Source: an uncultured Candidatus Pelagibacter sp.
GTDB lineage: Bacteria; Pseudomonadota; Alphaproteobacteria; Pelagibacterales; Pelagibacteraceae
Length of the DNA stretch: 64,000 nucleotides
Assembly: GCA_905612435.1 (NCBI GenBank)
Contig: CAJQRZ010000010.1
Span: forward strand, 81,999-145,998
Direction of reading: 5' to 3'
This document shows positions 51,672 through 64,000 of the stretch, in pieces; the first letter of the stretch is position 1, and the number at the start of each line of letters is the position of its first letter. The translations under genes were made by a program, and so were the position numbers. Below the pieces are notes generated by a model, which worked only from the letters and a program-made list of their open reading frames with translations, was not told the DNA's origin and did no database searches.

Positions 51672-52142
51672 ATGAAAAAAATAATAATTATTTTTTTATT
51701 TATCTGTACGCCTTTATTGGCCGGAAAAGTAGAACGGCTAGGTTTTTATAACTTACAAGAACTTCTAGAGGACGATAATTTAACTTATAAAATTATTAGA
51801 AGTTGTGTTTCTTTAAATTCTGCCATAACAGAGATCACAAAAGAAGAACATCCCGAATTATCAAAAAGTTTTTTTGAGACAGCAAACTACTTATACCCTT
51901 TTGGCATTCTTACTTTATCAAAAATAAAAAAAATGAATTATAAAGATGTTGAGAAAGAGTATATGACCAGTGTGACTGCCCAAACATCTGACTATATGGA
52001 TTTCATGAAACAAAATGGAGTAGCTAACCAAAGTTTTATCAAAGGAACTTTTATTGGGGATGATCTTAATTTTTGTAACGAAATTAGATCTGCAATAGAA
52101 ATAACCATAACGGAAACTAAAAAATTGAAATCAAAAAACTAA
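51672..52142 (+). CDS. Small exported hypothetical protein
   Basis: A 156-residue protein with a signal peptide (IIIIFLFICTPLLAG, cleavage about residue 18) and a mostly helical mature part with two cysteines (RSCVS and NFCNE) that may form a disulphide. No family recognised. It starts one base after the class II aldolase stop, so it shares that transcript. Confidence 0.6.
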   Translation: MKKIIIIFLFICTPLLAGKVERLGFYNLQELLEDDNLTYKIIRSCVSLNSAITEITKEEHPELSKSFFETANYLYPFGILTLSKIKKMNYKDVEKEYMTSVTAQTSDYMDFMKQNGVANQSFIKGTFIGDDLNFCNEIRSAIEITITETKKLKSKN

Positions 52143-52149
52143 GATTAAA

Positions 52150-52455
52150 TTATTCAGATTTTTTCTTAAACTTTGGAATTTTTGATTTCTTTTTTTTCTT
52201 AAATTTAGGAATTTTAGATTTTTTTGATTTTTTTACTCCTTTTCCCGAGGAAGCTTTCTCTTCGATTTGTGGCATTATTTCTTTACATTCTTCGGTATTA
52301 CAGAAATAAGTCGCACCTGTTTTATTATTATAAAGGTAAGCTCCACAATTAGATTTCTTTTTTAAAGTACAGTTTGCAGGTTCTAAAATATATTCAGAAT
52401 GTACGTTGGTCGAAATGAATAAAAACAATCCAAGAACTAAAAAAAAAAATTTCAT
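52150..52455 (-). CDS. Small exported protein with a repeated basic tail
   Basis: A 101-residue protein with a signal peptide ending near VHS (residue 20). The mature part has four Cys (NCTLKKKSNC, YFCNTEEC) suggesting two disulphides, and a C-terminal tail with KSKIPKFKKK present twice in tandem. The tail is strongly cationic. Convergent with the preceding gene. Function unknown; the Cys part could be a small fold exposed in the periplasm. Confidence 0.55.
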   Translation of the reverse strand: MKFFFLVLGLFLFISTNVHSEYILEPANCTLKKKSNCGAYLYNNKTGATYFCNTEECKEIMPQIEEKASSGKGVKKSKKSKIPKFKKKKKSKIPKFKKKSE

Positions 52456-52672: not shown

Positions 52673-53875
52673 ATGAAAATAAATAGAATTATCTATGTTG
52701 TCATTTTTTCTTGGTTTCTAGGAATTTTTAGTACCGCTTCTGCAGGAGAATTATGCACTGAGTGTCTAAAAAAAGTTCCTAAGGAAATGAGAGATTATGT
52801 CTACAACATGGACTTTATGGATAAAGACCAACCTCTAGGACCAGCAGTTATGAAGGGCTGGAAGAGTAAGAGAAAACCACCATGGACAATAGGTTATGCA
52901 AGTACTTACGCAGGTAATACATGGCGTAAGGGTGCAATGGAACGTTTAATGGAAGTTGTTTATCCTAAATGGAAAGCACTTGGAATGGTTGATGAAATTG
53001 TAATTACTCAATCAAACTTGGATGACTCTTTGCAAATTCAGCAAATGAGACAGATGATAGATGGCGGAAAAGTTGATGCAATTATTGTATGTTGTTCAAA
53101 CATAACTGCTCTTAACACAACTATTAAATATGGTTGGGAAAAAGGCATACCTACACTTTCATTTACTGGCTTTACAACATCGCCATATTCAATCAACACA
53201 TCTGTTAACTACAGATTGGTTGGTTATTATGTAGGTGCATGGATGGCTGAGTTAATTGGTGAAAAAGGTAATGTAATAGTTATCGAAGGAATACCTGGTT
53301 ATTCAGCATCTGACCAACAAAACAAAGGGGTACTAGCTGCACTGTCAGAATATCCTAATGTAAAAGTTGTTGGACAATTAGCTCATAACTGGACTTCTCA
53401 AGTTGCTCAGAAAGAACTTTCACAGTGGTTATCAACAAATACAAAAAAAGTTGATGGTATTGCGGTTCAATCATCTGGAGAAACTGGAACTTTACAGGCA
53501 TTACTACAGTCTGGTCTTGATCCAATTCCACCAATCGCATTAGGTGGAGAGCTAGGTGCTCTATGTTATTGGAGACAAAATCCTAAATATATTGATGAAG
53601 CGATATATGCATGGCCTCCAGGAGATGAAGTAGAGTTAGGTATGGACGTAATGATTAGAACTTTGCAAGGTCAAAGTCCTATGATTCAATCTATATTAGT
53701 TGGTCCTGCTACAAAAAATTTCGATGAAATCAAAGCAATCTTAGATGAAGATTGTGATCGAAATTCTACTGGTTGGGATAATCCAGGAATGGAAAAATGG
53801 GCTCCTAAAGAATACGTAGATGCATTCTTTGAGAATCCAAGCGATCCTACAAAATACGATCCAAAATCTCACTAA
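52673..53875 (+). CDS. CUT2-type (ribose/LacI-fold) periplasmic binding protein
   Basis: A 400-residue exported protein; signal peptide ends at TASA (about residue 24). The type 1 periplasmic fold is indicated by PWTIGYASTYAGNTWRKG (about 68-85), LQIQQMRQMIDGGKVDAIIVCC, NVIVIEGIPGYSASDQQNKG and IAVQSSGETGTLQALL. A Cys pair near the N-terminus (CTECLKK) and a C-terminal acidic Asp/Pro-rich end extend it beyond the usual 300 residues. The strong GAGGAG site and C-rich codons suggest abundance. Ligand unknown; the operon points to a compound processed by PxpA/biotin carboxylase enzymes. Confidence 0.85.
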   Translation: MKINRIIYVVIFSWFLGIFSTASAGELCTECLKKVPKEMRDYVYNMDFMDKDQPLGPAVMKGWKSKRKPPWTIGYASTYAGNTWRKGAMERLMEVVYPKWKALGMVDEIVITQSNLDDSLQIQQMRQMIDGGKVDAIIVCCSNITALNTTIKYGWEKGIPTLSFTGFTTSPYSINTSVNYRLVGYYVGAWMAELIGEKGNVIVIEGIPGYSASDQQNKGVLAALSEYPNVKVVGQLAHNWTSQVAQKELSQWLSTNTKKVDGIAVQSSGETGTLQALLQSGLDPIPPIALGGELGALCYWRQNPKYIDEAIYAWPPGDEVELGMDVMIRTLQGQSPMIQSILVGPATKNFDEIKAILDEDCDRNSTGWDNPGMEKWAPKEYVDAFFENPSDPTKYDPKSH

Positions 53876-53890
53876 TACTTTTAATTAAGT

Positions 53891-55639
53891 ATGAGTGCTG
53901 AAAAAAATATAGAAGACAACACCTCTAAAGAGGTGTTGTCTGACAGATCTAAAAATGTCCAGGGCGATATTTATGTCCAGGATGTTCATAAATATTTTGG
54001 TGTAACTAAAGCTTTAAACGGAGTAAATTTTAATGCAAATTTTGGTGAGATACATGCAATAGTTGGTGGAAATGGCTGTGGCAAAAGCACTTTAGCAAAA
54101 GCAATGTCTGGAGTGTTACCAGTAGATAAAGGTAAAGTTTCAATACTTGGTCAAACTCCAACTTCTCCTGTAATGGCTAGAAATATGGGGATAGCAACAG
54201 TATTTCAAGAAGTAATGATTGCGGAAGAATCATCCGTAGTAGATAATTTATTTGTTGGTTCAGATGATTTTTGGTACAAAAATTTAACTCAAAGAGAAAA
54301 AGTATTAAAAGCCCAAGAAATTATGGAAGATCTTGTTGGTGAATACATTGATCCATACACTCAAGCTTTTAATTTATCACTTCCAATAAAGGCTTGGATT
54401 ACAATTGCAAGAGCATTTTTAAGAGAAAATACTAAAGTATTAATTCTTGATGAATCATCAGCTGCTCTTGATTTTGATTCAACTGAAAGATTATTTAAAA
54501 AAATGAGAGAATTGCGTGACAGAGGTGTTGCAATATTGATTGTTACACACCGAATTGCTGAATTAGTTAGAATTAGTGATAAAGCAACTGTTATGAGAGA
54601 CGGTAAAGATGTCGGAGTATTAGAGAAAAAAGATCTTAATGAAAAAAATCTAATAGGCCTAATGACTGGAAGAGAAGAAACTGGGGAAAAATCTACATCA
54701 GTAGCAATACAAACTAAAACTGAAAAAGTTGTAATGAGAGCTGAAAATTTAGTTGTTTGGCCAGATAGTAAGCCTGTCAATTTTGAAATTAGAAGAGGAG
54801 AAATAGTCGGTGTAACAGGTCTAGATGGAAATGGGCAAGATGACTTTGTTAAAATCTTAGCAGGTGTTCAAGAATCTCATGGAGGTACTTTAGAGGTTTT
54901 AGACACTAATGAAAAATTTTTGAAATTCAATTCACTTGATAGTGCAAAAGAAAATGGAATATCTTTTGTTTCTGGTGATCGAAAAAAAGAAGGAATACTT
55001 CCTAACTTAAGTATATATGAAAATTTAGTTGTCCCTCTTTATGAAAAAACTAGTAAGGCAGGGTTTTTAGGGTTTGTTAATTGGATGGAGTTAAATGGAA
55101 TTTTTGATTGGGAGGTAGAGAGATTAAGTATTAAAACTGGCTCAAGAGATGATTTGATTGGTTCATTAAGTGGAGGAAATCAACAAAAAGTTATGATTGC
55201 AAGATCATTTGCACAGCACCCTAAAATTCTTATTTTAAATGATCCAGCGAGAGGCATAGATATAAGTACTAAAAGAGATCTATATGTTCATTTAAGAAAA
55301 TATGTTGAAGAAGGTAATACAGTTGTTTTCTTATCCAGTGAATTAGAGGAATTTATTGGACTATGTCCAAAAGTAATAGTTTTTAGAAATGGAACAATAT
55401 TTGATATTTTTGAAAACGACAGAATTAATGCAGACACTTTGCTCGAAGGAATGTTTGGTCAAACAGCAGGAGTTGGTGAAACAACTGTTTCAAATAAATC
55501 AAATTTATCCACATTACCCATTCAAAATAAATCACTTGATGATAATAAAACAAAGGTAACACAAAAAATAAAAGTAGTAAATTTTGATAATCAAAATGCG
55601 AATAAAGATAAAACTAAAATAAAAATTAAAACATTTTAA
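53891..55639 (+). CDS. RbsA-type ABC ATPase with two nucleotide-binding domains
   Basis: A 582-residue tandem ATPase. Domain 1: Walker A GGNGCGKST, Walker B VLILDESSAALD, but its signature is degraded to LSLPIKAWITIARAF. Domain 2: Walker A is degenerate (GLDGNGQDDF) with a good signature LSGGNQQKVMIARSF and Walker B ILILNDPARGID. One good site in each half is usual for RbsA. A tail of about 70 polar residues follows, with KIKVVNFD at 559-566, a motif like the one ending the next protein. The first 25 residues precede the ABC domain; an 11-bp perfect hairpin lies in them (53915-53940). Confidence 0.88.
   Translation: MSAEKNIEDNTSKEVLSDRSKNVQGDIYVQDVHKYFGVTKALNGVNFNANFGEIHAIVGGNGCGKSTLAKAMSGVLPVDKGKVSILGQTPTSPVMARNMGIATVFQEVMIAEESSVVDNLFVGSDDFWYKNLTQREKVLKAQEIMEDLVGEYIDPYTQAFNLSLPIKAWITIARAFLRENTKVLILDESSAALDFDSTERLFKKMRELRDRGVAILIVTHRIAELVRISDKATVMRDGKDVGVLEKKDLNEKNLIGLMTGREETGEKSTSVAIQTKTEKVVMRAENLVVWPDSKPVNFEIRRGEIVGVTGLDGNGQDDFVKILAGVQESHGGTLEVLDTNEKFLKFNSLDSAKENGISFVSGDRKKEGILPNLSIYENLVVPLYEKTSKAGFLGFVNWMELNGIFDWEVERLSIKTGSRDDLIGSLSGGNQQKVMIARSFAQHPKILILNDPARGIDISTKRDLYVHLRKYVEEGNTVVFLSSELEEFIGLCPKVIVFRNGTIFDIFENDRINADTLLEGMFGQTAGVGETTVSNKSNLSTLPIQNKSLDDNKTKVTQKIKVVNFDNQNANKDKTKIKIKTF
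53915..53940 (+). other. 11-bp perfect hairpin inside the first codons of the ATPase gene
   Basis: GACAACACCTC (53915-53925) pairs exactly with GAGGTGTTGTC (53930-53940) around TAAA. It lies 40 bases after the binding-protein stop. It has no T-run, so it is not a classical terminator. Probable role: stabilising the 3' end of binding-protein mRNA or pausing translation, in line with hairpins at the same place in the other two transporter operons. Confidence 0.75.
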
Positions 55640-56154
55640 TGAAAACAAAAGATAAAAATAATTATTATAACGATGAAGATGAAGTTAATTTTGATAAATT
55701 AAATAATTTTAGAAAATTTAATTCTGACATTAAAAGTAGTACTCAATCTAAAAATCATAATATTAAATATGCTAATTCTGATAAAAATTATTTTAATAAT
55801 ATTATAAAAACTGAGGAAAATTTACCTTTATTTACAAAAAAAGATGCTCAAAAAGAAGTGACATATTATAATTCATCGGATTTTCAAAAATTTGATCAAT
55901 TTAATAACTTTTTGGAATACAAAGACAATGCAGAACAAAAGCAAAATATAAATATAGATTCTGAATTGAGTTATTCATCAAATGACTATGGTGAGTTTAA
56001 CAAAATAATTCCAACAAAAAATACAGGAAAAAAAATAATTAATAATAAAAATCAAAAAGTTAAGATTATTGATTATAGTAAATTAAAAGATAATGAAAAA
56101 AATCTTAAAAATAAAGTGGGAGTCGAAAAAATAAAAATTGTTTATTTTGATTAG
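55639..56154 (+). CDS. Asn/Lys-rich disordered protein with a 34-residue repeat
   Basis: A 171-residue protein of no known family, rich in Asn, Lys, Asp and Ser, with no membrane helix or signal. The pattern Y-x3-D-x3-F-(D/N)-x-(L/I/F) occurs four times, starting at residues 10, 44, 77 and 112, a spacing of 33-35; a weak fifth copy starts at 146. It ends in KIKIVYFD, like the tail motif of the preceding ATPase. Its ATG overlaps the ATPase stop (TAATG), and the permease gene follows after 6 bases, so it is an intrinsic part of the transporter operon. It could be an adaptor for the transporter and enzymes. Confidence 0.7.
   Translation: MKTKDKNNYYNDEDEVNFDKLNNFRKFNSDIKSSTQSKNHNIKYANSDKNYFNNIIKTEENLPLFTKKDAQKEVTYYNSSDFQKFDQFNNFLEYKDNAEQKQNINIDSELSYSSNDYGEFNKIIPTKNTGKKIINNKNQKVKIIDYSKLKDNEKNLKNKVGVEKIKIVYFD
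55666..56007 (+). repeat. Four protein-level repeats of motif Y-x3-D-x3-F-(D/N)-x-(L/I/F)
   Basis: The four 12-residue cores lie at 55666-55701, 55768-55803, 55867-55902 and 55972-56007. Spacing is 99-105 bases. The DNA between copies is not obviously alike, so the repeat is conserved at protein level. Two more copies occur in the biotin carboxylase-KipI linker at 62047-62082 and 62119-62154. Confidence 0.65.
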
Positions 56155-56160
56155 AAAAAT

Positions 56161-58485
56161 ATGGAAGTAATTGAAAAATTAAAAAAAACCTATAGACCAA
56201 GTGCAGATACTTCATCAAATAAGTATCTAATGGTTCCAATTTTTATTTTTTTTGCTTTACTGATTTTTGCTCTAATTAGAAGTCCAATACTTATTTCTCA
56301 ATCAGGTATTGGTAGTGCAATAATGCTTACTGCTCCTTTAATATTAACTACATATGCTTTGACATTCATTGCAATGGCAGGAAGAGGAGGAGTTGATTTA
56401 TCTATTGGTCCTTTCATGGGCTTTATAAACGTAAGTAGCATTCAGTTATATGCCGCAGGATATTTACAAACACCTATTACATGGTTTGTGTATGCAATTT
56501 CGATGGGTTTGCTATGGCAACTTTTTTATGCTTTAATTGTTTGTTTTGTAAGAGTTTCACCAATTATTGTTTCGCTAGCAGGATATTTAGCATTTGCAGG
56601 AATTAACATCGTAATTTTACCAAGACCAGGAGGGATTGCTCCTGATTGGCTGCTTCCATGGGGAGAAGGTTTTACTATCTTAAACCCAATATTTCTCCTG
56701 ATGATTTTAGCAACGATATTTTTTTATATAATCACTCACACAGCTTTTTGGGGTCATCTAAAATTAATGGGTTCGGATGAACGTGCTGCTTTTACAAGTG
56801 GTGTAAAAATTAATTTAGTAAGAATAGTTGCTCATATGATAGCAGGAATTTTTGCAGCTCTTTCTGCAATATGTTTTACTGCTCTTGTTGGTTCTGGAGA
56901 TCCCTTGCAAGGAACCAAATACACTTTATTAGGTATTACGGCACTAGTTCTAGGAGGTGCAAGTTTAGCTGGAGGACGTGGAGGTGCCTTTGGTGCAATT
57001 CTAGGTGCTTTAAATTTATATCTTATAAATTATATCTTAGTTACTTTTAGGTTTGAAAGACTTCAAAGCTTTGTATCTGACTTATCTTATGGTTCAGTTT
57101 TGGTTATAGCTTTATTGGTCAGCCTTATACTTCCTTATGTCACAAGAGTTACTAAAGGTTTATCTGTAATAGTTTTTTTCATTCTAATGGCGTTTGCTGG
57201 GTTATTTGTCATGATACATCAAATTTATGATCAACCAATTGTCATTGAAAAAGTTGTTGAGAATGATGCGAAATCTGAAACTGAGACAAGAGGATCAATA
57301 GTAAGAAAAGTAGACGCAACAGGAAATATTATTGTTGAAGATAGTGGAAGTGCAACTACGGGACAAGGTACCTCTAAGGGTGGCTCTCTTGCGGGACATG
57401 GAGTGGTTCAGTTCACTGAAACGCCAGGAACAATTATTTTTTATATAATTTTAGGAATAGCATTTGTTGCTCTTTTATTTTATTTATTATCGGCTCATAG
57501 AAGTCCATCTACTATTACTTTTGTGTTTATTGTGGTGGTAATGGCTACTGGTTTAATTTTCAATCCAGAAGATAAAGGGAAAGACACACTGAAAGATACA
57601 GAAAAAATAACCTTACAATCTAATCAAGTAAGTAGTATTGAAACATCTGCTCCTCAATATTTTAGTTTAGAAAAAATAAATTTTCTACCTAATGTTATAG
57701 AGAGCACTCTTATTTCTGGGACTACCTATAGTATAGTTTATTTAGCTGGTATTGTATTGTTTGCTTCATTGATTATTGTATCTATGCTACCCCAGTTTAG
57801 TCCTAGAACCAAATCAACAGCAATGATGTTTTTTCTAGCTGCTTTATCTTTAATTGTATTAAAAGGTATTTCATATAATAACTTAATTGAAAACACAGAT
57901 ATTAGCTTTTTTGGTATTCAAGGGTATGGTGTAATATTAGTAGTTTTACTTCTATTTGTTATAACCGCACCATTTGTTCACTCAAGAATAAAAAATTTAA
58001 CCAATGTCTATATATTTGGATTTGGTATTCTTGCTATAATTTCTACATATTTTATAGGTGGAAATACATTTATTCCTGATGATCCATCTCTTTATCAACC
58101 TAAAATTATAAACGAATTAAACATTGTAGATCTTTCACAGGTTGAATATGAGGGCACTAAAAGATTTTTCTATGAAACTGTAACTTCGGGATATTCCCAA
58201 TTTGCATTCAGTATTCTAGCAGTATTTTTACTTCAATATTTTTTATTTCTTAATATGGGTAAAAAAGGGAACTACAGAAGATTCGCACCATATATTTATA
58301 TAGTTATATTTGCTGTAGCGCTTTGGTCTGCAATTTTTTATTCAGTTGGATATTCATTTTATAAAATTTTAGCAGTATTTGTTATTGGTATTCCAATTAC
58401 TCCTTTAGTATGGCAATTTATGTCTATTTATAATGAGAAAAATGCCCGTGATAATCAACTTAGTCAATGGGAAGAGGTAAAGTAA
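56161..58485 (+). CDS. CUT2-type permease with a large extra C-terminal membrane part
   Basis: A 774-residue membrane protein, over twice the usual RbsC length. Residues about 1-340 are a normal permease: GRGGVDLSIGPFMGF, VRVSPIIVSLAGYLAFAGINI, GVKINLVRIVAHMIAG and LGGASLAGGRGGAFGAILGA. After a polar loop (about 365-415, KVVENDAKSETETRGS) come six or more further helices in two blocks with a second long soluble loop (about 470-520 and 640-680). The added part resembles no transporter I know. Spacing to the second permease is one base. The extra helices are probably an accessory or sensor domain. Confidence 0.82.
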   Translation: MEVIEKLKKTYRPSADTSSNKYLMVPIFIFFALLIFALIRSPILISQSGIGSAIMLTAPLILTTYALTFIAMAGRGGVDLSIGPFMGFINVSSIQLYAAGYLQTPITWFVYAISMGLLWQLFYALIVCFVRVSPIIVSLAGYLAFAGINIVILPRPGGIAPDWLLPWGEGFTILNPIFLLMILATIFFYIITHTAFWGHLKLMGSDERAAFTSGVKINLVRIVAHMIAGIFAALSAICFTALVGSGDPLQGTKYTLLGITALVLGGASLAGGRGGAFGAILGALNLYLINYILVTFRFERLQSFVSDLSYGSVLVIALLVSLILPYVTRVTKGLSVIVFFILMAFAGLFVMIHQIYDQPIVIEKVVENDAKSETETRGSIVRKVDATGNIIVEDSGSATTGQGTSKGGSLAGHGVVQFTETPGTIIFYIILGIAFVALLFYLLSAHRSPSTITFVFIVVVMATGLIFNPEDKGKDTLKDTEKITLQSNQVSSIETSAPQYFSLEKINFLPNVIESTLISGTTYSIVYLAGIVLFASLIIVSMLPQFSPRTKSTAMMFFLAALSLIVLKGISYNNLIENTDISFFGIQGYGVILVVLLLFVITAPFVHSRIKNLTNVYIFGFGILAIISTYFIGGNTFIPDDPSLYQPKIINELNIVDLSQVEYEGTKRFFYETVTSGYSQFAFSILAVFLLQYFLFLNMGKKGNYRRFAPYIYIVIFAVALWSAIFYSVGYSFYKILAVFVIGIPITPLVWQFMSIYNEKNARDNQLSQWEEVK

Positions 58486-58486
58486 A

Positions 58487-59887
58487 ATGAAAAGATCATC
58501 TTTTCTATTCCTTAAAGGATTAGGATTAATATTTGCAATTCTTTGCGGTATAGGAACTGCAGTACTTGGTTGGTACGATGGTGCTGATTGGATGAATATT
58601 ACCACCTACTCTATTGCTGTAACTGGATTAATATTATGGGGATGGTATCATTTTTCTGTTAGATGGATTAATGAAGATTTAAAAAAAAATATATTTACTA
58701 AATTTCCTAAAGAAGAAAATGCACTAGATGAAGAAGATGAAGAAAATTTCTTCTTTAAAAATGTTAGAGAAAATAGGTGGAAAACAGTAGCATTTCTTGG
58801 TGTTATTCTTATTTTTACATTTGTATCTTTAATTTCAGAAAATTTCTTTTCAGGAAGAACGTTAGTTTCTTTTTTAATCTTCCTTATATTCGTAATTTTT
58901 ATGGGTGTCATAAGCAGATATATAAAGGGAAGTAAAAGTGTTTTTGTTGGTATAGGAGTTTTGATTGGATTATTTATTATTGGATCCTTAACTATACCTG
59001 GCTTCTTGACTACTATGAATATGAAATCAATGTTAGTCTTTGCGTCATTTCTTGGTTTAGCAACAATCGGACAAACTTTTGTTGCACTTTTAGGAGGTCT
59101 GGATTTATCGATCCCTTTTGTTATTGGTTCAATGAATGTTGCATTAATGTCGTTAATTTCTAAAGGAGTTTCACCTTGGTTGGCTTGTCTAGTGATATTA
59201 TTATTAGGGGCTTTAATTGGGTTTGTTAATGGTTTTTTAAGCTTTAGGCTTCAAGGACAAGCATTAATTTTAACTTTGGGCGTTGGATTTTTTGTTAAAG
59301 GTGGAGTTCAAATATTAGTTTCAATGGGAACTTTTTCAGCTGGTACAGTTTTTGGAGTAGTTCCAGATTGGATGCAAAATTTAGCATCTATGGGTGGAAA
59401 AACTCTTGGTCTTCCAATACCTCCTGTAATCATTATTTGGATTGTAGTAAGTATTTTAGTTATTATTGCTCTAAGATTAACAAAATGGGGGAGACATTTA
59501 TATGCTTTAGGAGGAAGTAGATTATCCTCATCAAGACTATCAATCTCTGAAAGAGGATATTGGATTGGAGCTTATGTCATTAGTGGATTTTTCTCTGCTT
59601 TGACTGGAATATTACTTCTTGGTTGGAGTGGTGGAGGATATGTTGGAGCTGGAGATATATATTTATTTACAACAATAGCCGCTGTAGTTATTGGAGGAAC
59701 CTCATTGCTAGGCGGTTCTGGAGGATATGGATTAAGTGTTATCGGAGTTTTTATTTTACAAATAATAACAACAGTTCTAATTGGATGGGGTTTAAGCTGG
59801 GAAGCGCAACAATTTATTCTTGGGTTATTAATTATACCGATGGTGGCTCTTTATGCCAGATCACCTCATATAAGAAGTCAAATATAA
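58487..59887 (+). CDS. CUT2-type permease with an N-terminal extension
   Basis: A 466-residue permease. The first 150 residues hold four hydrophobic helices and an acidic loop (KFPKEENALDEEDEENFFFKN, about 74-94). The core has GLATIGQTFVALLGGLDLSIPFVIGSMNV (about 190-218), GFLSFRLQGQALILTLGVGFFVKGG and VIGGTSLLGGSGGYGLSVIG, all typical RbsC-family segments. With the previous gene it forms a heterodimeric channel. The gene 12 bases downstream is pxpA. Confidence 0.87.
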   Translation: MKRSSFLFLKGLGLIFAILCGIGTAVLGWYDGADWMNITTYSIAVTGLILWGWYHFSVRWINEDLKKNIFTKFPKEENALDEEDEENFFFKNVRENRWKTVAFLGVILIFTFVSLISENFFSGRTLVSFLIFLIFVIFMGVISRYIKGSKSVFVGIGVLIGLFIIGSLTIPGFLTTMNMKSMLVFASFLGLATIGQTFVALLGGLDLSIPFVIGSMNVALMSLISKGVSPWLACLVILLLGALIGFVNGFLSFRLQGQALILTLGVGFFVKGGVQILVSMGTFSAGTVFGVVPDWMQNLASMGGKTLGLPIPPVIIIWIVVSILVIIALRLTKWGRHLYALGGSRLSSSRLSISERGYWIGAYVISGFFSALTGILLLGWSGGGYVGAGDIYLFTTIAAVVIGGTSLLGGSGGYGLSVIGVFILQIITTVLIGWGLSWEAQQFILGLLIIPMVALYARSPHIRSQI

Positions 59888-59899
59888 AGGAAAAAATTT

Positions 59900-60619
59900 A
59901 TGACTAAATTAAATTGTGATATGGGTGAAAGCTTTGGAATTTATAGAGCTGGTAATGATGAAGAAATAATGCCTTTGATAGATATTGCTAATGTTGCTTG
60001 TGGATTTCATGCGTCTGATCCAAATCATATGAGAAAAACTGTAGCACTTGCAAAAAAACATGGTGTAAAAGTTGGTGCTCACCCTTCTTTTCCAGACTTA
60101 CAAGGGTTTGGAAGAAGAGAAATGAAAATGCCAAGACAAGATATAAAAAATATGATCATGTATCAAGTTGGTGCTTTAAAATCATTTTTAGACGAGCAAG
60201 ACATGCCCCTAAATCATATTAAACCTCATGGATCATTATATGTTATGGCTGCAAAAGATGAAAATATGGCACATGCTATTGCAGATGCTGTAGAAACTTT
60301 TAATGTTAGTATTTTTGGCATGGCAAATACATGTCATGAGAAAGTTTATAAAGATGAAAGAGGTTTAAACTTTGTCTCTGAATTTTACGCTGATCTAGAT
60401 TACGACGAGAATGGAAAATTAGTAATAGCAAAAGGTAAAAATGCAACTTATGACAGTAAAATTGCCACTGATCGCGTTTTACGAGCTATATCAGAAAAAA
60501 AGGTTACAAATACTGTTGGCAAAGATATAGATGTTGGGTGTGATACTATTTGTGTACACTCAGACACTCCTAATGCTGTAGAAATTATTAAAGGTATCAA
60601 GTCAGCTCTTAAAAAATAA
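59900..60619 (+). CDS. pxpA: LamB/YcsF family protein, 5-oxoprolinase subunit A-like
   Basis: A 239-residue protein matching PxpA (YbgL/YcsF) over its length: LNCDMGESFGIYRAGND (about 4-20), ANVACGFHASDPNHM, GAHPSFPDLQGFGRREM, HIKPHGSLYVMAA and GCDTICVHSDTPNA. With PxpB and PxpC it hydrolyses 5-oxoproline to glutamate using ATP in E. coli. It is placed 12 bases after the permease and 5 bases before the carboxylase-KipI gene, so the transporter and enzymes are one transcript. Confidence 0.92.
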   Translation: MTKLNCDMGESFGIYRAGNDEEIMPLIDIANVACGFHASDPNHMRKTVALAKKHGVKVGAHPSFPDLQGFGRREMKMPRQDIKNMIMYQVGALKSFLDEQDMPLNHIKPHGSLYVMAAKDENMAHAIADAVETFNVSIFGMANTCHEKVYKDERGLNFVSEFYADLDYDENGKLVIAKGKNATYDSKIATDRVLRAISEKKVTNTVGKDIDVGCDTICVHSDTPNAVEIIKGIKSALKK

Positions 60620-60624
60620 AATAA

Positions 60625-63084
60625 ATGAAAAAAATTCTCATAGCTAATCGAGGAGAAATAGCTTGTAGAATTATTGATAGTTGTAAAAAATTGAATTTAT
60701 ATTCAATTGCCGTCTACTCTGATATCGATAAAAATAGTAAACATGTTAGAAAAGCTGATGAATCAATTCATATAGGTGCCTCTAAAGCACAAGAAAGCTA
60801 CCTATCAATAACAAAGATTATCGATGCTGCTAAAAAATTAAATGTAGATGCAATACATCCAGGTTACGGATTTATGGCAGAAAATTCAGAATTTGCTCAA
60901 AAAATAATTGATTCAGATATTATTTGGATAGGTCCCAAGCCAAATACAATTATATCAATGGGCAATAAAGATATTGCAAGAGAACTCGCGGTAAAAAATA
61001 ACCTCCCAATTTGCCCTGGCTTAAATAATGATGAACTAAAAAGGGATGACCTAGAAACAAAATGTAATGAAATAGGGTTTCCAATTTTAATAAAAGCAAG
61101 TGCTGGCGGAGGAGGAATTGGAATGCAAATTGCAAATAACTATGAGCAATTAATTCAATCAATTGAAAAAACTAAAAATTTAGCAAAGAAAGCTTTTGGT
61201 AATAGTGATATTTTTTTAGAAAAATTTATATCTAATGCAAGACATATAGAGATTCAAGTCTTTGGTCTTGGTGAAAAGAAAGCCTTACATTTTTATGAAA
61301 GAGATTGTTCAATACAAAGACGTTTTCAAAAAATTATTGAAGAAAGCCCAGCACCCAAAATTGAACAATCAATTATAGATGAAATGGCAGAGAATGCTGT
61401 AAATTTTGTTACAAATCAAAAATATGAAGGAGCGGGAACAATAGAATTTATATACGACATTGATAATAAAAAATTTTATTTTTTAGAAATGAATACTCGA
61501 ATTCAAGTAGAACATCCAGTTACTGAGGCTATTACTGGTTTTGATTTAGTTGCAATGCAAATTAAATTTGCATTAAAAATGGATATAGATTCAATAGATC
61601 AAAATAAAATTAATAAATCAGGACATGCAATTGAATGTAGATTGTATGCTGAAGATCCAACTAAAAATTTTCTTCCATCTCCTGGAAAAATTACAAAACT
61701 AAAAATTCCAAATATTGGTTTGACTAATATTAGGCTGGATATTGGTGTTGATGAAGGAGATGAAATTTCTTTTTATTATGATCCTATGATTGCAAAAATT
61801 ATATCTAAAGGTGCAAATAGAAATGAAAGTATAAACAACATGATTCATTATTTGAATAGTTTTGAAATCGAAGGAATTAATACAAACAAGGATTTTTTAA
61901 TATCAGTACTACAAAATAAATCTTTTGAAGAAGCTAGCTATAATACAAAATTTATAGAAAATAATTTATCTTTGTTTACTAAAAAAATAACAAGTATACC
62001 AACAATAAAAAATGAAGTTTTAGAACCAGATAAAATTATTCAAAAATATACTGACAAAGATGTAAAGGCTTTCGAAAAAATAGTTTCAAAATCACCTAAA
62101 GATAAAACTTCCCAAAATTATACAGAGAAAGATATAAAAACATTTAACAATATTGTATTAAAAAAAACAAATACTAGTAATGCGTCCTCATCTTCAATAA
62201 AGAATATTCCTGGTAAAGTGTACAAAGAACCAAAATTTAAACCAGGTGGTGATAAATATATGTTCATTGAATTCGGTAATCTTATGGATCTTGAAATAAA
62301 TTTTACTGCACAAAACTTGGCTAAAGCTATTCATGATAATAAAATCAAAGGAGTTTATGAAACAGCTCCTTGTTTTGCATCAATGCTAATTCACTATAAT
62401 CCTGATGAAATAAAATTTAATGATTTAAAAAATGAAATGAAATCACTTATTAAATCATTAGGTCCAACTGACGATATTGAAATTAATAGTAGGGTTTTTT
62501 CATTTCCAACTGTTTACCTTGATAAGTGGACAAAAGAATGCATTGAAGATTATTCTAGCAAAATATCAAAAAAAACACCTGATCCTGAGTTTATTGTGGA
62601 GCTAAATAACCTTGAAAATACTGATCAATTTGTAAGAGTGCATTCCGGCACTGAATATTGGGTATCTGCACTTGGTTTTTGGCCTGGCCTGCCCTTTATG
62701 ATGCCTCTTGATCCTAGATGCAAACTAACAGCTCCAAAATATAATCCTCCTAGAACTTGGACACCAAAAGGAGCTATCGGTATGGGCGGATCTTCTACAT
62801 CAATCTATCCAGATAGATTGCCTGGAGGATATCAAATATTTGGGATTATCCCTGTTCCGATTTGGGATACACAAAAAAGCTTTTCAGTATTTGAAGAAAG
62901 CATATGTCTTTTTAAACCAGGAGATAGAGTAAAATTTATACCTACCACATATGAAGAATTTGATCATGTTTCAAATAAGGTGAAAGATAAATCTTATGAC
63001 TATAATATTGTTGAGTATCAAAAATTCTCAGTCAAAAACTACAAAAAATGGTTAACTACGATTGATAAAACGAAAAGGTTTTAA
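60625..63084 (+). CDS. Biotin carboxylase fused to KipI / PxpB domain
   Basis: An 819-residue fusion. Residues about 1-450 are a full biotin carboxylase: ILIANRGEIACRII, HPGYGFMAENSEFA, KASAGGGGIGM (ATP-grasp loop), FYERDCSIQRRFQKIIEESPAP and EMNTRIQVEHPVTE. A Lys/Asn-rich linker (about 460-535) holds two copies of YTxKDxKxFxxIV at 475 and 499. The C-terminal part (about 540-819) is KipI/PxpB-like: PCFASMLIHYNP, GLPFMMPLDPRCKLTAPKY and GGYQIFGIIPVPIWD. Urea carboxylase has the same domain order but also a biotin-carrier domain; no such AMKM motif is seen here. The fusion suggests a carboxylating variant of 5-oxoprolinase or of an allophanate-type enzyme. Confidence 0.87.
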   Translation: MKKILIANRGEIACRIIDSCKKLNLYSIAVYSDIDKNSKHVRKADESIHIGASKAQESYLSITKIIDAAKKLNVDAIHPGYGFMAENSEFAQKIIDSDIIWIGPKPNTIISMGNKDIARELAVKNNLPICPGLNNDELKRDDLETKCNEIGFPILIKASAGGGGIGMQIANNYEQLIQSIEKTKNLAKKAFGNSDIFLEKFISNARHIEIQVFGLGEKKALHFYERDCSIQRRFQKIIEESPAPKIEQSIIDEMAENAVNFVTNQKYEGAGTIEFIYDIDNKKFYFLEMNTRIQVEHPVTEAITGFDLVAMQIKFALKMDIDSIDQNKINKSGHAIECRLYAEDPTKNFLPSPGKITKLKIPNIGLTNIRLDIGVDEGDEISFYYDPMIAKIISKGANRNESINNMIHYLNSFEIEGINTNKDFLISVLQNKSFEEASYNTKFIENNLSLFTKKITSIPTIKNEVLEPDKIIQKYTDKDVKAFEKIVSKSPKDKTSQNYTEKDIKTFNNIVLKKTNTSNASSSSIKNIPGKVYKEPKFKPGGDKYMFIEFGNLMDLEINFTAQNLAKAIHDNKIKGVYETAPCFASMLIHYNPDEIKFNDLKNEMKSLIKSLGPTDDIEINSRVFSFPTVYLDKWTKECIEDYSSKISKKTPDPEFIVELNNLENTDQFVRVHSGTEYWVSALGFWPGLPFMMPLDPRCKLTAPKYNPPRTWTPKGAIGMGGSSTSIYPDRLPGGYQIFGIIPVPIWDTQKSFSVFEESICLFKPGDRVKFIPTTYEEFDHVSNKVKDKSYDYNIVEYQKFSVKNYKKWLTTIDKTKRF

Positions 63085-63089
63085 TTTTT

Positions 63090-64000
63090 ATGGTGGAAGT
63101 AATTAAAAAAGGTCTAGAAACATCAGTTCAAGATTACCCAGGTAGAATTGGAACTTTAAATCAAGGATTTCCAGCTTCAGGTCCAATGGATAGTTGGTCT
63201 TTTAGACTGGCAAACATATTAGTGGGGAACGAACCTGGTGAAGCAGCTCTAGAATGTCAATTCATAGGTCCCACACTTAAATTTAAAAATGACAGAACAA
63301 TAGCAATCACAGGAGCAAACATGTCTCCCAAGTTAGATGGTAAAAGTATTCCATTGTGGGAAAGTTTAGAAGTTAAAGCCAATCAAACTTTAGAAATGCA
63401 GTTTGCTACTGTAGGTGCCAGATCATATATAGCTTTTTCTGGTGGTATTAATAGCAAACCATGGTTGGGTTCAAGATCAACTTTTCATAAAGCAGGAGTT
63501 GGAGGAATTAATGGTAAAGCTATACAGGATGGCCAAACTTTACCTTTAAGAAAAAATAAAACTATTCACCCAAGAAAAATCAAAAAAAACTCAATCCCAA
63601 TAATGTCTACTGATAAAAATTGGTCTATAGAAGTTGTGCTAGGTCCAAATGATGATTGGGTTGATAAAAAGGGACATGAAATATTTCTTAACTCTAAATG
63701 GAAACTTCAAGCAAAAAGTGACAGAACTGGCTATAGGTTGGATGGACCTAAATTATCTTTTACTGACAAAGCAACAAACAAAAGTCTTGAAAATGGATCA
63801 GAACCTTCAAACATTATTGATCAAGGTTATCCAGCTGGGGCTGTAAATCTTGCTGGTCAAACTCCAATAATACTGGTTAATGATGGGCCTAGCATGGGTG
63901 GCTTTATTAACCCCTATACCGTTCCGTCTGCAGCATTTTGGAAATTAGGTCAAGCTAAGCCAGGTGATACTTTTAATTTTGTTGAAGTTTCAGTTGAAAA
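63090..64000 (+). CDS. pxpC: KipA / PxpC-type carboxyltransferase-like subunit, 3' truncated by the window edge
   Basis: An open frame from ATG 63090 to the window end (303 codons). It matches the KipA/PxpC (AHS2) family: LETSVQDYPGRIGTLNQGFPASGPMDSWSFRLAN (split here as ETSVQDYPG and PASGPMD), ITGANMSPKLDG, IAFSGGINSKPWLGSRST and LVNDGPSMGGFINPYT. It begins 5 bases after the carboxylase-KipI gene. PxpB and PxpC form a complex that does the ATP-dependent step in 5-oxoproline cleavage. The unseen C-terminus, or the next gene, should be inspected for a biotin-carrier domain, which the operon otherwise lacks. Confidence 0.9.
   Translation, partial: MVEVIKKGLETSVQDYPGRIGTLNQGFPASGPMDSWSFRLANILVGNEPGEAALECQFIGPTLKFKNDRTIAITGANMSPKLDGKSIPLWESLEVKANQTLEMQFATVGARSYIAFSGGINSKPWLGSRSTFHKAGVGGINGKAIQDGQTLPLRKNKTIHPRKIKKNSIPIMSTDKNWSIEVVLGPNDDWVDKKGHEIFLNSKWKLQAKSDRTGYRLDGPKLSFTDKATNKSLENGSEPSNIIDQGYPAGAVNLAGQTPIILVNDGPSMGGFINPYTVPSAAFWKLGQAKPGDTFNFVEVSVE

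Follow-up and report, generated by a model that had tools for sequence, protein, structure and literature searches.

A candidate multivalent adaptor that shares short sequence elements with the transporter and the enzyme of a Pelagibacter operon

The window, by which we mean the whole analysed stretch of 64,000 nucleotides from an uncultured Candidatus Pelagibacter sp., carries an operon on its forward strand that combines an ABC transporter with an enzyme complex. The transporter genes encode a periplasmic substrate-binding protein (52673..53875; PF13407), an ATPase (53891..55639; PF00005 in two stretches), permease 1 (PM1; 56161..58485), a protein of 774 aa that matches PF02653 at 54-305 only and has a long extra C-terminal half, and permease 2 (58487..59887; PF02653). 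Between the ATPase and PM1 genes lies an ORF for a predicted disordered protein of 171 aa, here called SML (55639..56154), whose ATG shares one base with the stop codon of the ATPase and which yielded no match in a Pfam scan. SML was found in all 32 loci that hold an ATPase of the SML operon type. The enzyme genes follow with a LamB/YcsF (PxpA-like) subunit (59900..60619; PF03746), a biotin carboxylase-KipI (PxpB-like) fusion of 819 aa (BC-KipI; 60625..63084; PF00289, PF02786, PF02785 and PF02682) and KipA (PxpC-like; 63090..64000; PF02626), an open ORF that is cut by the contig end. In relatives, a 72-aa biotin-carrier-like protein is encoded downstream. The LamB/YcsF, KipI and KipA families thus stand in one gene group, as in the 5-oxoprolinase PxpABC, which is the topic of a 2026 paper (PMC13274462, in the part available to us). 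In contrast to PxpABC, KipI is fused here to a biotin carboxylase, relatives encode the biotin-carrier-like protein, and the subunits carry the two sequence elements, A and B, that are described below. The fusion suggests a carboxylation step instead of, or besides, the ATP-dependent opening of 5-oxoproline.

The operon belongs to the flotillin-associated rhodopsin (FAR) cluster, AG-390-L03 of PMC10308929 being our locus L037. According to the part of that paper available to us, the FArhodopsin gene lies beside a flotillin gene of the same strand in a cluster of about ten co-directional genes, PxpA and carboxylases included; that part makes no mention of shared motifs or of a disordered adaptor. 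The same-strand adjacency of FArhodopsin and flotillin is present in the clusters of genomes G112 and G101 (PF01036, PF15975), and in G112 one stretch holds transporter, LamB, BC-KipI, KipA, flotillin and rhodopsin. The run of about ten co-directional genes was seen in relatives, the contig of the window ending in KipA; in the window's own assembly, a 91% identical flotillin is located on another contig (C21). A search of 398 genomes of the phylum with the cluster flotillin, aimed at a cluster without the transporter, gave a match at E 1e-110 in the own genome alone.

Motif A (Y-x3-D-x3-F-x2-[LI]) is present in four copies in SML and in two copies in the BC-KipI linker. The SML copies start at residues 10 (YNDEDEVNFDKL; 55666..55701), 44 (YANSDKNYFNNI; 55768..55803), 77 (YNSSDFQKFDQF; 55867..55902) and 112 (YSSNDYGEFNKI; 55972..56007), that is, at a spacing of 33-35 residues, and AlphaFold predicts helices there at residues 12-27, 46-55, 79-88 and 114-123, respectively. 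The linker copies, YTDKDVKAFEKI (62047..62082) and YTEKDIKTFNNI (62119..62154), have the nearly invariant residues Y475, D479, F483 and I486, and Y499, D503, F507 and I510. All six positions agree with those reported in an earlier sequence-only reading, which had also proposed one common core for them. The four SML copies all fit the proposed form Y-x3-D-x3-F-[DN]-x-[LIF]; however, as the D/N position is occupied by E in the first of the linker copies, the core common to SML and linker is Y-x3-D-x3-F-x2-[LIFV], whereby Y-x3-D-x3-F holds in all six copies and the D/N position does not. Helices were predicted at all six copies, with an onset two residues past each motif Tyr, and motif A is predicted to fold as an N-capped helix. 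The SML model (pTM 0.19) consists of separate helices, and outside the A helices and the B strands the protein is predicted to be disordered. For BC-KipI, the model reached a mean pLDDT of 40.7 and is too poor to show whether motif A docks on the enzyme's own domains.

The sequence-only reading had argued that the regular spacing speaks against chance. Over 20,000 shuffles of the SML composition, the copy number averaged 0.013 and reached 2 at most, compared to 4 observed; for the 88-residue linker the average was 0.001 and the highest value 1, compared to 2 observed. The own-genome background was taken from 499 ORFs (150,300 residues), which stem from 494 kb of an assembly that totals 1,107 kb and is 72% complete. 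This background contained eight core matches, six of which are those of SML and the enzyme, the others being single copies in L201 and L217; at least two copies were found only in SML and the enzyme. Among the 60 ORFs richest in Asn, Lys, Asp, Glu and Ser, with SML and the enzyme left out, one had a copy, so that the pattern is not an ordinary one of unrelated Asn/Lys-rich proteins, which had been named as a possible objection. An HMM built from the SML copies and run against 1,727 ORFs ranked the fused enzymes directly below the SMLs, with E 0.003 for the own enzyme and 0.19 for the nearest protein of another kind. Across homologues, with incomplete genes left out (SML of L036; enzymes of L009, L068, L071, L075 and L109), 30 of the 32 SMLs, all of them distinct in sequence, have exactly four copies, and of the 48 full-length fused linkers, with 42 distinct sequences among them, 47 have exactly two. 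The SMLs of L047 and L058 have three copies and one altered copy, and the enzyme linker of L066 is without motif A, yet the SML of this locus has four copies.

It had further been considered that the motif might be lost in homologous operons while its flanks are conserved. The opposite was observed, since in SML and linker homologues the motif is kept and the flanking residues drift. SML shows dN of 0.10-0.24 versus dS of 0.42-0.75, indicating purifying selection that is concentrated on the motif positions: there is one nonsynonymous change per 41 motif A sites in each of six comparisons (pN 0.024), whereas the remaining N-terminal part of SML gave pN of 0.106-0.258 in the same comparisons. 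An alignment of 25 SML sequences has 13 invariant columns within residues 2-138; 12 of them fall on the motif, which makes up 16 of the 137 positions (hypergeometric 4e-13). Judged by these sequence comparisons, motif A is under selection, and an origin by chance or low complexity is rejected on the basis of the shuffles, the invariant columns and the pN contrast. An SML profile match in genome G518 (L112, E 0.005) was rejected as a chance match, as it is a 90-codon frame inside the span of a longer ORF (L112:572-1927).

The second element, B, is a strand-spacer-strand arrangement at the C-terminus of SML (VKIIDY ... IKIVYFD, also given as IKIVDF ... IKIVYFD; 56059..56151), with invariant columns at I144, D145, K154, N158, K159, I165, K166, V168, F170 and D171. 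AlphaFold places strands at residues 141-145 and 166-170, and element B is predicted to fold as a pair of strands. A comparable element forms the C-terminus of the ATPase (IKVVNF ... KIKIKTF; 55568..55636), where a loose B pattern has two matches within the last 45 residues in 32/32 ATPases and a strict pattern fits 21 of the 32 tails. Two loose matches in the last 45 residues were found in only 2 of 567 own ORFs, namely the ATPase and SML. The ATPase C-terminus carries element B in the SAR11, L066, f32 and f67 loci, and in relatives the C-terminal tail of KipA carries it as well. The similarity of SML element B to the tails of KipA, of the f32 biotin carboxylase (BC) and of the f67 ATPase went beyond 5,000 shuffles, whereas SML versus the ATPase tail and KipA versus the ATPase tail were not significant alone (330 and 537 of 5,000 shuffles, respectively, scored as high). 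A C-terminal B pattern, derived from the known tails, matched 24 of 1,727 ORFs, a figure in which one ATPase appears twice. All of them are ATPase, SML, KipA or f32 BC; the L066 ATPase escapes the pattern. An HMM of the SML C-terminus reached the f32 BC and KipA tails at E 0.14-0.18, with other ORFs in the same range (0.09-0.31), and a whole-genome B pattern gave 12 matches in six genomes, nine in the operon and three elsewhere, compared to four for the control. Taken together, element B is, on the pattern evidence, a mark of protein ends in the putative transporter-enzyme system.

The comparison of lineages, which covers a handful of independent ones, shows both elements in other arrangements. 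In f32, where no separate SML was found, the counterparts of the two SML halves are located on enzyme subunits. There the ATPase is followed by KipI with an A-bearing N-terminal extension in 20/22 loci, the other two being cut, and BC ends in element B directly before PM1 in 22/22 loci; in the KipI extension, 16 of 20 loci show E instead of D in A copy 2, and copy 3 is degenerate. When A and B are treated as blocks, a single inversion turns the f32 order into that of L066 (AG-464-G03) in one of 66 cases, with breaks at B|BC and A|KipI. The adaptor is thus not the sole way to build the system, as the L066 enzyme is without motif A and f32 is without a separate adaptor found. In f67, element B is present on the ATPase and in five copies in a small ORF, the only places there with strict-B matches. 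The enzyme query retrieved only biotin-carboxylase-half matches in f67, no such enzyme was found, and no f67 ORF occurs in the match list of the A profile. Motif A therefore goes with the enzyme and element B with the transporter. In 22 loci of ordinary LamB/BC/KipI/KipA genes, neither A nor B was found in the scanned proteins. The sequence-only reading had not included element B or the KipA tail, nor the lineages with a rearranged order or without the enzyme, nor the membership in the FAR cluster.

We favor the explanation, with a probability of roughly 0.58, that SML is a multivalent adaptor which holds the BC-KipI enzyme complex at the ABC transporter. This putative assembly would belong to the known flotillin-rhodopsin cluster. 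Here, motif A would dock on a putative folded partner on the enzyme side and element B on a putative partner on the transporter or flotillin side. A single SML could recruit several enzyme complexes to the importer, with the linker copies of A as a further source of valency for the assembly, and the imported substrate might pass straight to the enzyme. The docking system suggested in the sequence-only reading is retained in part: an SML that multiplies the docking sites of the linker fits the data, whereas competition for one site is not required, because the L066 enzyme lacks motif A and its SML has four copies. The guessed tie between enzyme and transporter is strengthened by element B on the C-terminal part of SML and at the ATPase C-terminus, and by the f32 counterparts of the SML halves on KipI and BC. 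L066 also disfavors an A-A pairing of SML and enzyme as the only contact. As receptors of motif A, a 65-73-aa protein encoded after the biotin carrier is disfavored, since there is no ORF of at least 40 aa at this place in L032, and so is a GST-like protein, as none was found downstream in L037. A direct channeling of imported nutrients to enzymes is often assumed for bacteria, but to our knowledge there are few cases in which a tether between an ABC importer and an enzyme is recognizable from sequence. With a candidate tether readable in the genome, its elements recurrent in several lineages and counterparts of its halves on different enzyme subunits in a relative, a transporter-enzyme assembly becomes directly testable; if true, it would be a possible cargo for the flotillin of the rhodopsin cluster. 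Judged by titles and the starts of abstracts, none of the papers retrieved on motif-based tethers and metabolons concerns the SML system.

EPYC1 and other pyrenoid proteins with Rubisco-binding motifs are disordered and carry an evenly spaced, short helical motif that also occurs in other assembly proteins. SML resembles them in its four evenly spaced copies on separate helices, its predicted disorder and the recurrence of motif A in the linkers and in the f32 KipI extension. It differs in being bacterial and in having another motif and a second, C-terminal element like that of the transporter; moreover, motif A lies in the enzyme itself and no Rubisco is involved. It would seem unlikely, in spite of the even spacing, the presence of the same motif inside the enzyme and the lack of A where the enzyme was not found, that SML is an enzyme-clustering linker of this kind, in which A binds a folded enzyme site and the copies on SML and linker gather a condensate with the transporter uninvolved. 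Such a linker would leave unexplained why B is present on SML and on the ATPase (SAR11, L066, f32, f67) and why the enzyme-less f67 has five B copies. It is possible, if on the improbable side, that B is instead an address for a membrane platform: as a copy of the beta-strand behind the flotillin cap helix it would be added to the flotillin barrel, and ATPase, SML and KipA or BC would each be sent on their own to the flotillin cage of the cluster. Cluster flotillins do carry NIGDIKIIDVNG-like strands in the C-terminal Flot domain; such a flotillin is present in SAR11, f32 and f67, L066 has at least the rhodopsin, and the genome of an untagged f17 transporter is without a flotillin match at E 1e-40. 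The narrow end of human flotillin has a 44-stranded parallel barrel, formed by a strand that lies between the helical layers (PMC11260169, in the part available to us), and we infer that this is the strand which B resembles. In a run of a strand HMM against 1,727 ORFs, seven flotillins were directly followed by one KipA, by small proteins of f67 (three) and by the SML of L066, but at E-values of 0.9-1.4. Under a scoring matrix for the strand, the own ATPase and SML came only at 207 and 412 among 665, compared to ranks 4 and 5 for the two KipA. Flotillins of other alphaproteobacteria have the IKI[VIL] strand as well, and the long PM1 has the same presence and absence. Element B stands at the ends of other proteins and without the cap helix, and its resemblance to the cap strand is not statistically firm; the link is only suggestive. 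The cluster flotillin had no sequence match in the PDB at E 1e-5, and nothing was found in the literature on docking motifs of bacterial flotillins. A broader and rather doubtful proposal, drawn from the same patterns, would be a two-letter peptide code with helix A on enzyme and adaptor and strand B on ATPase, adaptor and enzyme subunit. Here B would mimic the flotillin barrel strand, all parts would be plugged into the flotillin cage beside the rhodopsin, and tags moved by gene inversion would serve the same assembly.

Returning to the adaptor reading, two further explanations concern SML itself. That it is a competitor which strips the enzyme linker from its partner, and thus a regulator and not a tether, would account for the same motif on SML and enzyme and for the higher copy number on SML. 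This is very unlikely, since the L066 SML keeps four copies while the enzyme has none, and since in f32 the A copies are on KipI and no free protein was found. SML does join two kinds of pieces that are found on other proteins in f32, as would be expected of a leftover from a rearrangement. We give hardly any credence to such a leftover, or to a low-complexity protein with a chance motif: the purifying selection is concentrated on the motif positions, shuffles do not reach the observed copy number, and the SML profile has 1,565 matching protein clusters at E 0.01, the best 120 of the 1,565 being listed.

On the basis of its sequence, conservation and distribution, we infer that SML, the predicted disordered protein of 171 amino acids encoded at 55639..56154 (+), most likely is an adaptor, in which the repeated motif A would collect the enzyme and the C-terminal element B would anchor the assembly to the importer or to the importer's flotillin platform. 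The gene belongs to an operon in the last 11 kb of the window, which encodes a periplasmic binding protein, an ABC ATPase, SML, two permeases, a LamB/YcsF protein, a biotin carboxylase (BC)-KipI fusion and KipA, the last operon gene in the window, which is interrupted by the contig end. The whole set falls within the flotillin-associated rhodopsin cluster described in PMC10308929; the flotillin of the same genome is located on contig C21. Pfam names were obtained for the flotillin, the rhodopsin, KipA, the biotin carrier and a GST-like protein, and SML had no Pfam match.

The sequence-only reading had reported a tyrosine motif at residues 10, 44, 77 and 112 of SML and at residues 475 and 499 of the BC-KipI linker. 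All six copies were found at these positions, sharing the core Y-x3-D-x3-F-x2-[LIFV] (motif A), and the suggestion that the repeats are not due to chance was borne out, since none of 20,000 shuffled SML sequences contained more than two copies versus the four observed. A set of 499 ORFs, covering 494 kb of the assembly (1,107 kb, 72% complete), contained eight matches to the core: four in SML, two in the enzyme and one each in two other proteins. One of the latter (YLARDKKYFNSL) lies in a 179-aa protein on the same contig as the flotillin (L217:4998-5537) and is kept in genome G112 as YLAKDKKYFDLL, in one copy only. AlphaFold predicted SML to be without a global fold (pTM 0.19), with helices at residues 12-27, 46-55, 79-88 and 114-123, each beginning two residues past the motif Tyr, and strands at 141-145 and 166-170. 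The linker copies were likewise predicted as helices (477-489 and 501-511), in an enzyme model that is poor overall. Given what is established on helix capping, the Ser/Thr-x-x-Asp directly following this Tyr may be read as a capping box combined with a hydrophobic staple.

For conservation analysis, 80 loci found with the enzyme as query and loci from further genomes were compared, whereby truncated SML and enzyme copies were excluded from the motif A counts. Each of the 32 loci holding this ATPase (>60% identity) also encodes SML, and the motif is conserved in its homologues, as the sequence-only reading would have it: exactly four copies occur in 30 of the 32 SMLs, all of them distinct, and exactly two in 47 of the 48 fused linkers of full length, which comprise 42 distinct sequences. 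The two remaining SMLs (L047 and L058) have three copies and one altered copy, and the remaining linker, from locus L066, has none. In a 25-row SML alignment, motif positions make up 12 of the 13 invariant columns in residues 2-138, and in an alignment of the enzymes the nearly invariant columns of the otherwise variable linker include Y475, D479, F483, I486, Y499, D503, F507 and I510. In each of six pairwise comparisons, nonsynonymous changes affected 1 in 41 motif codon sites versus 11-26% in the rest of the N-terminal part. A search with the SML profile at E 0.01 gave 1,565 matching protein clusters, of which the best 120 were listed.

Conservation extends to the SML C-terminus (IKIIDY ... 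IKIVYFD), here called element B, and comparable pairs are located at the end of the ATPase and, in relatives, of KipA. Within the last 45 residues, a loose pattern was found in all 32 ATPases and in 48 of the 49 KipA proteins (copies of ≤360 residues excluded), and a strict one in 21 of 32 ATPases, 47 of 49 KipA proteins and 32 of 32 SMLs. The one KipA without the loose pattern (L109) is on a Kiloniellaceae contig, on which only a KipI piece and a distant ATPase match were detected next to it. As a control, the loose pattern matched this region in 5 of 567 own ORFs, with two matches only in the ATPase and SML. The SML tail scored above all 5,000 shuffles against the tails of KipA, of BC from family f32 and of the ATPase from f67, two lineages that have the transporter too; its likeness to its own ATPase tail (330 of 5,000 shuffles as high) and that of KipA to the ATPase tail (537 of 5,000) do not go beyond shuffles. 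A C-terminal pattern, derived from tails already known, matched 24 of 1,727 ORFs, all of them ATPase, SML, KipA or f32 BC; this count includes one ATPase twice and lacks that of L066. In six whole genomes, 12 matches to a related DNA pattern were obtained versus 4 for the reversed-pattern control: SML in G000; SML and KipA in G101; SML, KipA and a further site in G112; two at the operon and two elsewhere in G024; and BC in each of G510 and G432.

Both elements occur on other hosts in f32. With permease 1 as query, the transporter was detected in 7 of 385 genomes of the class, including our own, and in 38 of 52 f32 genomes; the SML profile, in the same 385-genome draw, matched only our own genome and a frame in G518 that was judged to be due to chance. 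Gene order and tails were analyzed in 22 f32 loci. The gene after the ATPase encodes KipI with a 135-residue N-extension bearing motif A in 20 of 22 (the remaining two are cut), with copies located around residues 5 and 45 and a degenerate third around 76; in the second copy, E replaces D in 16 of 20 loci. BC is a separate gene with element B at its end, immediately before permease 1, in 22 of 22. Thus, the SML N-half has its counterpart on KipI and the C-half on BC. L066 holds a complete SML plus a fused BC-KipI, and 1 of 66 single inversions of the f32 order, with A and B as own signed blocks, yields the L066 order. Of 22 loci from other bacteria, 20 have LamB-BC-KipI-KipA side by side in that order, and none of the 22 has A or B in its scanned proteins; the f32 order thus looks derived, a direction of change that we infer.

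In f67, element B occurs without motif A. The transporter occurs together with a flotillin in three GC-rich genomes, where a rhodopsin ORF adjoins the flotillin (Pfam check in one genome). ATPase and permease 1 are separated by an ORF of ~110 residues with five B copies, and a B pair also forms the end of the ATPase. The strict pattern matched four times per genome, always in this ORF, with zero control matches; no f67 ORF was in the motif A profile list, and the enzyme query found in f67 only matches to its biotin-carboxylase half. Element B therefore accompanies the transporter, and motif A the enzyme. Family f17 has a related transporter, in which the ATPase tail is short, and an ORF like that with five B copies is absent there. 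In a GC-rich relative, a 110-aa ORF between ATPase and permease (L123:6688-7020) consists of five IKIVEFD-like repeats. Permease 1 of the window (56161-58485) has 774 aa including a long additional half; this long form is present in SAR11, f32, f67 and L066, and the untagged f17 relative has an open frame of 468 aa only.

Disordered linkers with repeated helical motifs, such as EPYC1, are a known kind, and it might be that SML is a condensate linker of the enzyme only. It could also be that SML is a competitor, or that B is a flotillin address. As to the latter, the cluster flotillins have IKIIDVNG-like strands in the Flot domain, as do flotillins of other alphaproteobacteria, and in human flotillin a narrow-end strand forms a 44-stranded parallel barrel (PMC11260169). 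With a flotillin-strand profile, B-bearing proteins rank directly after the flotillins, although with E-values of about 1, and a scoring matrix of the strand places our own ATPase and SML at low ranks. We regard flotillin as a candidate receptor rather than a result. Under the adaptor reading, an ABC importer and its enzyme would have a two-element code in common, with tags on different hosts per lineage; none such was found in literature searches on motif-based tethers and metabolons and on bacterial flotillin docking motifs.

Two small ORFs with signal-like starts (51672-52142 and 52150-52455), one with a NCGAYLYNNKTGATYFC stretch, precede the operon in the SAR11 relatives listed; in f32 and L066, ORFs of similar look are located after the cluster. 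In 7 of 8 relatives listed, a protein of 65-73 aa is encoded after the biotin carrier (L034:12844-13041, L037:12837-13046, L066:12776-12988), and L032 has no ORF of at least 40 aa there. The L034 contig, filed as a Flavobacteriales MAG, contains this SAR11 operon at 78-94% identity, so that this filing is probably a binning error.
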